The notes under the pieces are model-generated. The model saw only the letters and a program-made list of their open reading frames with translations, did no database searches and had not been told where the DNA came from. From contig JAJCXU010000133.1 of NCBI GenBank assembly GCA_029263275.1, positions 1-13,004 on the forward strand: a DNA stretch of 13,004 nucleotides, in the 5' to 3' direction. The DNA comes from Ilumatobacter sp. (GTDB taxonomy: Bacteria > Actinomycetota > Acidimicrobiia > Acidimicrobiales > Ilumatobacteraceae). The position numbers and the translations under genes were made by a program. Of the stretch, positions 959 to 7,149 are shown piece after piece. The stretch's first letter is position 1, and the number at the start of each line of letters is the position of its first letter.

Positions 959-1782
959 GCAACACCGTCCGATACGGCACGCCGAATGTCGAGTACGCGA
1001 TGAAGATGGCGACGACGCTGCCCGAAGACGATGGCCCGGTGTGGATGGTCAACCTGATGAAGTACCGCGACGTTGCCGACTACGCCGACGGTCGCGACTC
1101 GACGATCAGCGGACGTGAAGCTGACGACCTGTACTCACCGCTCGACTCGCTCGCGGCGGTCGGAGCGCGGCCGGTGTTCTTCGGCGAGGTCGACCAGCAG
1201 CTGCTCGGCGACGAACCGAAGTGGGATCGCATCGGGGTGGTCAAGTATCCGACGCGCAAGTCATTCATCGACATGCAGTCGCTCCCGGGCTTCCAGGAGT
1301 CGCACCATCACAAGGACGCGGGGATGGAGACCACGATCGTCATCGGCACCCAGCCGATGCCGGTGCCCGAAGCGCCGGAAGGATTTGTGCCGGTCGACTG
1401 GGCCGACGTGCCCCATCCGCCGACGGCCGAAGATGGCCCCGTCGTCGTGATGCACGTCATCCGCTTCAACGATGCAGAGTCAGCGCATCAAACGCCAGAT
1501 CACATGGAGCAATATCAGACCGCGGCCGGGAAGGTGGCGCTTGGGCATGGCGTGCGGATCAATGGATGGTTCGCCGTGGAGGACACGATCATCGGCGACG
1601 GGCGTGCGTGGCATCAGGTGCGCTTCAACGAGTTCCCGAGCAAAGCGGCCTTCATGGCGGTCGTGACCGACCCGTCTCGACTCGAAGCCCAGAAGGACCA
1701 TCGGGAAGTCGCCATTGCCGACACGTACGCGTTGATCGTGCGTGCCGGCCTCAACGAGCTCGGCGCTTCGGTCGAGTCATGA
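955..1782 (+). CDS. Tandem DUF1330-like (dimeric alpha/beta-barrel) protein
   Basis: This 275-aa protein of unknown reaction appears to be two ferredoxin-like DUF1330-type modules in tandem. Module 1 begins with a strand at 29-37 (VWMVNLMKY) and contains the typical ARPVFFGEV strand, then a KYPTRKSFIDM helix start and GFQESHHHKDAGMETT. Module 2 begins at 163-173 (VVVMHVIRFND) and ends with a strand at YALIVRAG. DUF1330 proteins are normally about 95-100 aa and dimerise through the sheet. A two-module chain would form the barrel within one polypeptide. Family members act as small monooxygenase-like or binding proteins, but no cofactor site is obvious here. The gene overlaps both neighbours by ATGA (955-958 and 1779-1782), so it is very probably co-translated with the DJ-1-like and GST-like proteins. 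Confidence 0.8.
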   Translation: MSNTVRYGTPNVEYAMKMATTLPEDDGPVWMVNLMKYRDVADYADGRDSTISGREADDLYSPLDSLAAVGARPVFFGEVDQQLLGDEPKWDRIGVVKYPTRKSFIDMQSLPGFQESHHHKDAGMETTIVIGTQPMPVPEAPEGFVPVDWADVPHPPTAEDGPVVVMHVIRFNDAESAHQTPDHMEQYQTAAGKVALGHGVRINGWFAVEDTIIGDGRAWHQVRFNEFPSKAAFMAVVTDPSRLEAQKDHREVAIADTYALIVRAGLNELGASVES

Positions 1783-2816
1783 GCCAGCAGCATCCCCTGC
1801 TCCTCGGCGGTGGCTACGGCTCCCCGTATTCGATCAAGATGCGCGGGGTGCTCCGGTATCGCCAGATTCCGTTCCGGTGGATCCTGCGCGGGTCGGAGTG
1901 GGACACGTTGCCAGACGTACCGGTCCAGATCATCCCAGTGCTCGGGTTCCCCAACGAGGCGGGTGACTACACCGAAGCGATGGTCGACAGCAGTCCGCAG
2001 ATCATGCGACTCGAAACGATGTTTGACGCGCGAAGCCTCGTGCCGACCGACCCCGTGGTGGCGTTCATCGACTACCTCCTCGAGGACTACGGCGACGAGT
2101 GGATCACCAAGCCGATGTACCACTACCGCTGGTACTACGACGCGGCGATCGACAAAGCGGCCAAGCTGCTGCCGCTCGATCGAGGGGGCATCAATCTTCC
2201 TGACGCCGAGTGGCAGCAGATGCAGTCGTACATCTCCGAGCGCCAGATCGGGCGCCGGGCACTCGTCGGCTCGACCGAGGAGAACCGTCCGATCATCGAA
2301 GACTCGTACCACCGCCTGCTCGACCTGTTGTCGGCACACCTCGAGACGCGGATGTTCCTGCTCGGTGATCGACCGGGGCGGGGCGACTTCGGGCTGTTCG
2401 GCCAGTTGTTTCAACTGGTCAGCTGGGAGCCAGAATCGGCCCGCGAAGCGATCGACCGGGCACCGCGAGTCCGCAATTGGGTCGACCGCAGGGATGACCT
2501 CTCGTGGTGGCAGACACCGGTGGGCGGTGCGGGTTGGGCCGACCGCGACGCGATCGCCGAGACGACGATTGCGCTGCTGCGCGAGGTTGGACGGACCTAT
2601 GCGCCGTTCATGATCGCCAACGCCGAGGCACTGCAATCGGGAGCGGCGGAGATGTCGTGCACCATCGACGGTCAGACATACAGCCAGGCCCCGTTCGGAT
2701 ATCAGGGCAAGTGCTTGATGTGGTTGCGGGAGCAGTACGCAGCGCTGTCTGCAACCGATCGCGCAGCGGTCGACGCACTGCTCGCTGGAACGGGCTGCGA
2801 GCCGTTGTTCGTGTGA
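1779..2816 (+). CDS. Glutathione S-transferase-fold protein
   Basis: This 345-aa protein has a thioredoxin-like N-terminal domain and a helical C-terminal domain of the GST type. The N-terminal active-site loop reads GYGSPYSIKMR (12-22), so the usual catalytic Cys or Ser falls in S15-P16-Y17-S18; there is no Cys there. The expected cis-proline is P53 (QIIPVL), and the glutathione gamma-glutamyl contact motif is D70-S-S-P73. The helical half contains FLLGDRPGRGDFGLFGQ, matching the GST N-capping box region. At 345 aa it is longer than a typical 200-230 aa GST. The C-terminal extension (GWADRDAIAET onward) resembles that of uncharacterised actinobacterial and proteobacterial GST-like proteins. 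Many actinobacteria use mycothiol instead of glutathione, so the thiol substrate is open. ATG 1779 overlaps the upstream stop. A long frame upstream of it is a shadow of the preceding gene. Confidence 0.85.
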   Translation: MSQQHPLLLGGGYGSPYSIKMRGVLRYRQIPFRWILRGSEWDTLPDVPVQIIPVLGFPNEAGDYTEAMVDSSPQIMRLETMFDARSLVPTDPVVAFIDYLLEDYGDEWITKPMYHYRWYYDAAIDKAAKLLPLDRGGINLPDAEWQQMQSYISERQIGRRALVGSTEENRPIIEDSYHRLLDLLSAHLETRMFLLGDRPGRGDFGLFGQLFQLVSWEPESAREAIDRAPRVRNWVDRRDDLSWWQTPVGGAGWADRDAIAETTIALLREVGRTYAPFMIANAEALQSGAAEMSCTIDGQTYSQAPFGYQGKCLMWLREQYAALSATDRAAVDALLAGTGCEPLFV

Positions 2817-2881: not shown

Positions 2882-4123
2882 GTGGTGCGACTGAACGACT
2901 TACACGAGGCCGAGGCCGAACACCTGCGGGCGCGCGCTGGCGCGATGCAGCGGATCGAACCAGGCACGTGGCTGACGCCGAAGCCGTTGGCGGAGTCGAC
3001 AGTCGCGATCGTCTCGACAGCGGGCTTGCACCTGCGCAGCGATGCGCCGTTCACGCTCGGCGCCCTGGACTACCGCGTGGTGCCCGGCGACGCCGACTGG
3101 GGCGACGTGGTGCTGTCGCACATCAGCACCAACTTCGATCGCAGCGCATTCCAGCAGGATCCGAACATCTCGTTTCCACTCGAACGGCTCCACGAGATGG
3201 CTGCCGCCGGCGAGATCGGCGCGGTGAGCCCGCGCCACTACTCCTTCATGGGGGCGATGCCGAACCCGTCGCTGTTTGCAGACACCGGGAGTGAGGTTGG
3301 TCAGATGTTGGCTGCTGATGGCGTCGACGTCGCATTGCTTGTTCCCGTTTGACCACTCTGCACGGGCGCAGTTGGCGCCCTCACCAATTTCATCGAGCGC
3401 GCCGGAGTCGCTTGCACGTCGATCAGCCTCGTGCGCGAGCAGAGTGAAGCCGTTGGCCCAACGCGGGCATTGTGGGTCCCGTTCGCACTCGGTCGGCCGC
3501 TCGGTTCGGCGGAGGATCCCGAGTTCCAGAAGGACGTCATGCGCCAGGCGTTTGGCCTCCTTGCGAACGCCACTGAGCCGACGATCGCCGACTACGAAGG
3601 ACCGATGCCCGAAGAGGCTGGTCCCGGTCAGTGGGCCTGCCCGCTCAATCTCGGTCCGTTCGTCGACGACACCTTGACGGGGCGCCTGCTTGCCGAAGTC
3701 GGCCGGTTGAAGACCTGGTCAGCACAGACACGTGCCGCGCGCGGGCGCACCATGTTCGGTGTCAGCGGGGCCAGACCCGACCAGATCGACGATGTCGCAC
3801 GGGCCTTGGCGTCGATTGCCGACGCCGACTCGATCACCGACGCACCCGCTGGCGACGTCGAGTGGGCGTTCGACATGCCGCTCCTCATCAGGCATCTCGC
3901 GGATGACGTGCGCACCTTCTACCACGAGGCGATCGCTGCGCAGCCTGGATCGGCAGCACCGAACCACGACGCGCTCAACGACTGGGTCTTTGGTGGCACC
4001 GCGCTGGGCGACACGCTGCAGGCGGTGGCCGATCGGCTCACCGCGGCCGATGATCCAATGGCCAGCTTGGTGCGCGGCCTCGTGATCCCCGAAGGCAGAT
4101 ACCAAGGCGGCAGCGCCTTCTGA
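2882..4123 (+). CDS. Selenoprotein: glycine/sarcosine/betaine/D-proline reductase B-family protein with in-frame UGA (Sec157)
   Basis: Read as one gene, this encodes 413 aa with TGA at codon 157. Both halves share the same frame and there is no other stop. The N-terminal half contains LSHISTNFDRSAFQQD and HYSFMGAMPNPS. It leads into DGVDVALLVPV, followed by U157-P-L-C160, the position of the redox selenocysteine in GrdB/PrdB-type proteins. After the TGA the family pattern continues: a helix (ALTNFIERAGV), then ISLVREQSEAV, then ALWVPFALGRPLG. In clostridia, GrdB and PrdB are subunits of complexes that reductively cleave glycine, betaine, sarcosine or D-proline. Stand-alone relatives in aerobes have no assigned substrate, so the reaction is unknown. 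No ATG is available in frame; GTG 2882 is used, with GAGAGG at 2865-2870. Without selenocysteine insertion the product would be a 156-aa fragment. A pseudogene is the alternative, but a single TGA at exactly this site argues against it. Confidence 0.9.
3350..3352 (+). other. Selenocysteine codon (recoded UGA)
   Basis: This in-frame TGA is the only stop between the GTG at 2882 and the terminal TGA at 4121-4123. It is followed by CCA CTC TGC, giving U-P-L-C. UxxC is a classic redox selenoprotein motif, and its place directly after the hydrophobic strand VALLVPV matches the selenocysteine site of the GrdB/PrdB family. That recoding occurs here is inferred from family alignment by eye and from the hairpin downstream. 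Confidence 0.88.
3364..3380 (+). promoter_or_regulatory. Candidate bacterial SECIS element (SelB-binding hairpin)
   Basis: GGGCGC (3364-3369) pairs perfectly with GCGCCC (3375-3380) around the five-base loop AGUUG (3370-3374). The hairpin is 17 nt long and starts 11 nt after the UGA. From memory, the minimal E. coli fdhF element is also a 17-nt hairpin 11 nt downstream of UGA. The loop carries a G-U pair of neighbours (3371-3372), the bases SelB reads in E. coli. The loop G lies 19 nt past the UGA, within the usual range for bacterial SECIS elements. A bulged U in the stem, present in fdhF, is not seen here. The element lies inside coding sequence, as is normal in bacteria. Confidence 0.8.
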
Positions 4124-6619: not shown

Positions 6620-7096
6620 TCAACTCACGCGCTGGAGCGTGGCGGTGAAGCCGACGTAGTCCCAGATCAGGTGCTCGCCTTCGATTCGGCGGCGCACCTC
6701 GATCGGCATGCCGACGGGGCGGAGCACGTGCACGCCGTTCTCGAACGTGGCGGCCACGGTGATCCGCGTCTCCTTGTCGAACTCGGCCACGTCGTTGACG
6801 CCGTGCTCCGCCGTGCCATCGCAGCGCATGTCGTGGACGACACCGCCGGCGGTGATCGTCACGCGATCGGCCGCCTGCTCGATGCGCTGCACCCCGCCCA
6901 ACGCCCGATGCGCTGATTGTCTCTCCCCTTCGACGGTCACCTCGATGACCCGCCACGTTCCACGCATATCGGGAGCACCGCCGACCAACGGCGTGTCGCA
7001 GTCGGCCAGGACAGGCGGCGGCATCTCGCCGGTCCAGCCTCCGGTTGGAGTGAAAGCCGCGGGGATCTCGTCGACGTGCATACGACAGCCTGGCAT
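6620..7096 (-). CDS. Hypothetical protein, probably a lipocalin-like beta-barrel
   Basis: This 158-aa protein is rich in alternating beta-strand pattern: MRGTWRVIEVTVEG, RVTITAGGVVHDMRCDG, TRITVAATFENGVHVLRPVG and HLIWDYVGFTATL. A G-x-W near the start of the first strand and the overall layout resemble lipocalin/fatty-acid-binding-like barrels, but I recognise no named family. No signal peptide is present. The frame could start at TTG 7138, ATG 7096 or ATG 7081. I prefer ATG 7096 because it has a partial GGCGAAG upstream and leaves a 53-bp spacer to the divergent reductase gene. It is likely co-transcribed with the small gene downstream of it. Confidence 0.7.
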   Translation of the reverse strand: MPGCRMHVDEIPAAFTPTGGWTGEMPPPVLADCDTPLVGGAPDMRGTWRVIEVTVEGERQSAHRALGGVQRIEQAADRVTITAGGVVHDMRCDGTAEHGVNDVAEFDKETRITVAATFENGVHVLRPVGMPIEVRRRIEGEHLIWDYVGFTATLQRVS

Positions 7097-7149
7097 TCGA
7101 ACTTCGCCGCATTCGATCCGAGGTGATGAGAGGTGCAACGATCTGGAGC

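Follow-up and report, generated by a model that had tools for sequence, protein, structure and literature searches.

A predicted selenoprotein of a U-P-x-C clade beside PrdB, encoded across one in-frame UGA in an Acidimicrobiia genome

The window analyzed here, a stretch of 13,004 nucleotides, carries a gene that ordinary software splits in two but that actually encodes one selenium-containing protein, a relative of the anaerobes' proline and glycine reductases that nonetheless differs from them (Table 1). Its reading frame (2882-4120) is interrupted once, by TGA at 3350-3352, ahead of the true stop (TGA, 4121-4123). Translation with this TGA as U gives 413 residues with U-P-L-C at 157-160, confirming the proposal of a preliminary description that two ORFs in one frame join into a single 413-aa protein. 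The product is likely a self-contained redox enzyme that uses Sec and belongs to a clade next to PrdB; from homology and the chemistry of GrdB and PrdB, we propose a selenolate cycle for it below.

Table 1. Features of the selenoprotein gene and its upstream neighbor (positions in the window)
Feature	Position	Strand	Basis or remark
Upstream GST-family gene	1770..2816	+	Pfam GST_C_2, E 1e-8; start uncertain
PrdB-like selenoprotein gene	2882..4123	+	GTG start; 413 aa with Sec157
PrdB/GrdB-homologous alpha/beta domain (about residues 33-236)	2978..3589	+	TIGR04483 match; predicted model
UGA read as selenocysteine 157	3350..3352	+	TGA in 29/29 spanning loci; Cys in 7/7 unsplit homologues
U-P-L-C motif	3350..3361	+	C160 invariant in 33/33 (alignment A1)
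SECIS-like hairpin	3364..3380	+	6 bp stem GGGCGC/GCGCCC, loop AGUUG
C253, candidate resolving cysteine	3638..3640	+	Invariant in 33/33 (A1) and in 25/25 of the C-terminal set
C-terminal helical domain (about residues 265-401)	3674..4084	+	Six helices, predicted; outside the part shared with PrdB/GrdB

The stretches before and after the TGA are one gene, not two. The first matches the C-terminal part of Pfam GRDB. NCBIfam PrdB covers residues 33-230 of the joined translation and so spans the junction, and the GTG start corresponds to the MVRLSDLH start of orthologues. Among the database matches listed (the best 120 of 395), relatives reached 91% identity at a query coverage of 56-62% and measured 230-287 aa, the length expected for pieces that start after the UGA. 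The closest of these listed relatives are stored as fragments, many of them nameless or called 'hypothetical protein'.

Conservation of the UGA was followed across genomes of the same order. In seventeen others this frame recurs, interrupted by exactly one TGA, at 63-85% identity (G230 aligned from residue 81 on), and an eighteenth, G314, contributed a fragment that leaves the Sec site uncovered. A scan of genome contigs recovered 30 loci, one of which (L075) falls short of the site; the remaining 29 all carry TGA there. Column 157 of alignment A1 is likewise Sec/C (TGA in DNA) in all 33 members. To these we added a word-based search of 5.8 billion proteins, with query words taken from residues 1-175 and short N-terminal pieces excluded by length. 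It returned nine relatives, seven of which cross the site, all with C-P-x-C, and two of which end at the UGA. Two further short relatives also have Cys at this position, leaving Cys as the sole replacement seen for the conserved UGA. The preliminary description had staked its reading on Sec or Cys at position 157 of the homologues, and one or the other is present; a sequencing error or frameshift at 3350 is excluded by the many independent genomes that share the TGA.

A SECIS-like hairpin with a G in its apical loop begins 11 nt past the UGA and is conserved with compensatory changes. Across 46 sequences from several family groups, the stem comprises 6 bp (12-17 and 23-28 nt after the UGA) around a 5-nt loop, NGUNN. 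Pairing held in 269 of 276 cells, and sliding the partner elsewhere gave at most 71.4%. Both sides of a pair had changed in 36 cells, spread over four of the six pairs. None of 500 shuffles reached the observed percentage paired, the 36 both-side cells, or the covariation score, and two equaled the real alignment in how many extra pair types it shows. Simply counting the pairs changed on both sides (four) is uninformative, as 284 of 500 shuffles reached that number.

Because the peptide itself favors such a stem, a synonymous-codon null was used as well. All six pairs were present in 39 of the 46 sequences, against 2.0 expected and a maximum of 8 in 1000 draws, with relatedness among the sequences remaining in this null as in the shuffles. 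The Thr at +4 is encoded by ACG in 37 of 42 cases, compared with 226 of 880 elsewhere in the same genes. Folding energy gave a weak signal against the synonymous null (mean z -0.94; p<0.05 in 5 of 46 sequences; p 0.216 for the window), and the full stem in the window sequence alone had p 0.116. An Rfam search of the window found nothing.

The window's MAG encodes much of the machinery for selenocysteine insertion. Both selA (410 bits) and selD scored over their cut-offs, and selB was partial (214.9 bits against a cut-off of 242.25), its gene being cut by a contig end. The preliminary description had looked to the same genome for all of the Sec genes; selA, partial selB, and selD were there, whereas selC was not found in the incomplete MAG. 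No tRNA-Sec match exceeded the cut-off in this 70%-complete assembly, where the best matches were other tRNAs. The same search of 16 of the 17 other orthologue-bearing genomes (all but G230) gave a match over the cut-off in every one, and ARAGORN called tRNA-SeC with anticodon UCA in 15 of these, the sixteenth match lying at a contig end. Co-occurrence was counted over 397 genomes of the order, taking matches to E 1e-20 for selA and to E 1e-10 for the family. Of the 138 genomes that carry the family, 130 have selA, as do 107 of the 259 that lack it; with no cuts below E 0.001, the counts were 138 of 147 and 109 of 250. The Fisher p of 4e-28 for this co-occurrence is no calibrated probability, because the genomes are related and some are incomplete. 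The SelD of the window's genome is itself a selenoprotein, with an in-frame TGA in the HGAGUGCK catalytic loop (L143, G000 contig 173, 2494-3414, minus strand).

On the combined sequence evidence of codon conservation, Cys replacements, hairpin, and machinery, UGA 3350-3352 is a selenocysteine codon, and the earlier claim of a full-length selenoprotein is supported by the same observations. That the UGA is instead a true stop, a sequencing error, or the mark of a pseudogene, leaving two separate or broken products, is extremely improbable. Such a reading would accommodate the undetected tRNA-Sec in the window's MAG, but independent genomes have the TGA and the hairpin in common, and the sequence is conserved both before and after the codon.

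We then placed the protein among its relatives. TIGR04483 (PrdB) matches residues 33-230 with E 3.5e-29 and 101.9 bits, below its curated cut-off of 300. The same family matches all 33 members, with the best E-value of the families matched (best member, E 6e-39). A tree of 84 rows was built with two kinds of reference: GrdB whose genes lie next to GrdE/GrdG-like ones, and PrdB from plasmid annotations. A split with support 93 sets its 72 U/C-P-x-C rows apart from PrdB (UGTCHR), and one with support 100 sets all of these apart from GrdB (UGTxTRCG); the rooting is unsure, as this is a quick tree that came with a warning that long branches meet. Four groups appear within the U/C-P-x-C rows. The window falls in group A, whose 22 rows (support 98) are all Sec. 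Group B is mostly UPxCTRT and holds 35 rows, 29 with Sec and 6 with Cys, again at support 98. Group C (UPxCHQ) has 10 rows with support 59, and group D (UPxCTRA) has 5 with support 73. Its motif and its place in the tree assign the gene to a clade with U-P-x-C, alongside true PrdB. Profile matches and tree alike support what had been suggested from the start, that the protein is homologous to GrdB/PrdB and has its Sec where they do.

Further members of the wider family came to light in these searches. At least three more PrdB-like selenoprotein genes lie in the window's MAG, with the motifs UPNCTRAV (L125), UPLCTRTV (L126), and UPQCTRTV (L127) on G000 contigs 202, 481, and 566, respectively; 4 of 12 candidates in this genome were scored. 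Phages gave one weak match to the family, and plasmids gave 24 records, including annotated prdB and a Cys relative in Roseomonas.

The likeness to known reductases is considerable. With PrdB the protein shares the homologous domain, Sec at the same site, and Cys at +3; with the selenoprotein B subunits of glycine, sarcosine, and betaine reductase (GrdB/GrdF/GrdH; PF07355, TIGR01917/01918) it shares homology to the C-terminal part of GrdB and a Sec that follows a hydrophobic strand. The differences begin with the motif, UPxC as opposed to UGTCHR in PrdB, and extend to an additional C-terminal helical domain. Actinobacterial GrdB found here carry UGTxTRCG and lie near a GrdE/GrdG-like subunit. 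In the window's own class, two loci (L151 and L152) hold glycine-type reductase genes with TGA in both GrdA and GrdB (UGTGTRCG/UGTSTRCG), and their partner subunit also matches the NCBIfam fluoroacetate reductase FarE, below cut-off.

Partner subunits were sought in 17 genomes, the window's (70% complete) and 16 others, 11 of the 17 being at least 90% complete. PrdA was found in 0 of 17, with two positive controls at 976.7 and 925.1 bits. The GrdE/G-type subunit (PF09338) was also found in 0 of 17, compared with 15 of 396 genomes of the phylum. A search for GrdA (PF04723) was positive in 3 of 3 controls and in 0 of 17 of these genomes. The earlier remark that no Stickland partner subunits were in view was thereby borne out. 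The suggestion of an aerobic host gained support from four COX1-family (heme-copper oxidase) matches over cut-off on three contigs of the window's genome. Together with a fatty acid desaturase encoded in the window, these oxidases fit an aerobe.

The separate clade, the additional domain, and the absence of PrdA, the GrdE-type subunit, and GrdA from the 17 genomes searched indicate that this is in all likelihood no D-proline or glycine reductase of the known kind. We consider it very improbable that the protein is a genuine subunit of a D-proline (or glycine, betaine, or sarcosine) reductase, despite the TIGR04483 matches throughout the family, the Sec at the homologous site, and the PrdB name used in the Sargasso and GOS papers, as far as their available portions go (PMC1088965, PMC2398784). 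Each of the differences above speaks against such a subunit: the score below the family cut-off, a motif that is neither UGTCHR nor UGTxTRCG, partners missing from all 17 genomes while the controls worked, and the C-terminal domain.

What then might the enzyme do? A predicted model (pLDDT 87.4, pTM 0.86) places Sec after a strand and just before a helix in the alpha/beta domain, and the C-terminal helical domain modeled alone reached pLDDT 86.7. The part after the UGA had no Pfam or NCBIfam match at E 0.1. Residues invariant in all 33 aligned members are U157, C160, C253, H80, NFDR 84-87, D93, N95, R102, H119, and R195. The protein is most likely a self-contained selenol/thiol reductase. By analogy with the chemistry of GrdB and PrdB, the Sec157 selenolate would attack an electrophilic center of a small metabolite. 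C160 could then displace the reduced product, forming an Se-S bond, and C253, a thioredoxin- or thiol-type donor, or both would restore the selenol. The C-terminal helical domain may form the pocket for the substrate, a role that falls to PrdA or GrdE in the known complexes.

The motif also invites another assignment, that of a general thiol-disulfide or peroxide reductase in which UPxC acts like a CPxC redox motif. UPxC does sit at a helix start after a strand, the Sec-to-Cys swaps retain CPxC, and the 2005 and 2008 papers, in their available portions, class the family as thiol-redox by motif (PMC1088965, PMC2398784). We nonetheless regard this assignment as doubtful. Among the matches listed there was no thioredoxin-fold match, which excludes nothing, but many residues outside the motif are invariant (H80, NFDR 84-87, R102, H119, R195) and suggest a specific substrate. 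The boldest reading, which we offer as a tentative and unlikely idea, is that stand-alone selenoenzymes derived from PrdB make up a large clade, with several in each genome of aerobic Acidimicrobiia. They would carry out selenolate-dependent reductive C-X cleavage (X = N, S, halogen) in the presence of oxygen, with the C-terminal domain replacing the pyruvoyl partner on which the known enzymes depend.

Selenoproteins of this general kind were already known. The available portions of a 2005 Sargasso Sea survey rank proline reductase PrdB as the third most abundant family, with 42 Sec sequences and 1 Cys sequence (PMC1088965), and those of the 2008 GOS survey count 235 Sec and 110 Cys 'PrdB' with the motif UxxC under pfam07355 (PMC2398784). 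As marine Sec-containing UxxC 'PrdB' had thus been reported in 2005 and 2008, the preliminary description overstated the novelty of such a protein outside clostridia (PMC1088965, PMC2398784). The marine 'PrdB' resemble our clade in their UxxC motif, GRDB-type family, excess of Sec over Cys, and abundance at sea; they differ in that the surveys, as available, left them unseparated from true PrdB, a comparison made here by motif and description (PMC1088965, PMC2398784). In its accessible part, a 2026 review gives the entries for the family as glycine reductase selenoprotein B and D-proline reductase.

The literature searched yielded nothing that separates a U-P-x-C clade from PrdB or describes its additional C-terminal domain and missing partners, and nothing that looked related on Acidimicrobiia and selenocysteine. 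The split from true PrdB, the C-terminal domain, the invariant third Cys, and the missing partners appear to be what the present comparison adds. Marine members of the wider family have been named proline reductase since 2005, and the window's branch lacks the partners and the motif of that enzyme. A selenoprotein type reported among the commonest at sea thereby becomes an enzymatic question again, and one with a clear handle for experiments: a single gene with one Sec and no partner known for it.

Gene neighborhoods offered a lead to function. In the window, DJ-1/PfpI, DUF1330, and GST genes lie upstream of the selenoprotein gene on the same strand. Only 65 nt separate the GST-family gene from the selenoprotein gene, and the two are possibly on one transcript. 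In L046, the GST homologue and the selenoprotein gene overlap, the stop of the first with the start of the second, and a haloalkane dehalogenase gene lies about 6 kb upstream; in L048, a haloalkane dehalogenase gene (456 bits, cut-off 265) itself overlaps the selenoprotein start. These neighbors raise the idea of a detoxifier of alkylating electrophiles such as organohalides, its selenolate performing nucleophilic displacement or reductive dehalogenation, and the wider reductase family includes an NCBIfam entry, FarE, named as a subunit of fluoroacetate reductase. Fluoroacetate dehalorespiration is reportedly the subject of one paper. We judge such a role rather unlikely, however: among the remaining loci whose neighbors were clustered or listed, the GST and haloalkane dehalogenase genes were not seen again, so that electrophile detoxification is only a lead, and paralogue loci show other contexts.

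A conserved operon was sought by clustering the open frames of 31 loci and calling genes in 15 loci and in 38 paralogue or related loci; no clade-wide partner emerged among the frames clustered or listed. No conserved neighbor in them points to the substrate or the electron donor, both of which the preliminary description supposed to be new. What we take to be DUF1326, DUF2182, and flavin monooxygenase genes recur in one marine subgroup, and a presumed enoyl-CoA hydratase gene lies near the selenoprotein gene in 7 of the 38 paralogue or related loci. The window also encodes, at 6620-7138 on the minus strand, a 172-aa protein that neither Pfam nor NCBIfam matches; in eight marine loci, a homologue is encoded immediately downstream of the selenoprotein gene. 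Two short stop-split frames at L073:1381-1932, some 6 kb from a PrdB-like gene, resemble what we assume to be the UGSC selenoprotein family. In four genomes (L131, L132, L133, L135), a PrdB-like selenoprotein gene is followed by genes that presumably encode an MFS transporter and, with 1187 aa in L132, an indolepyruvate ferredoxin oxidoreductase.
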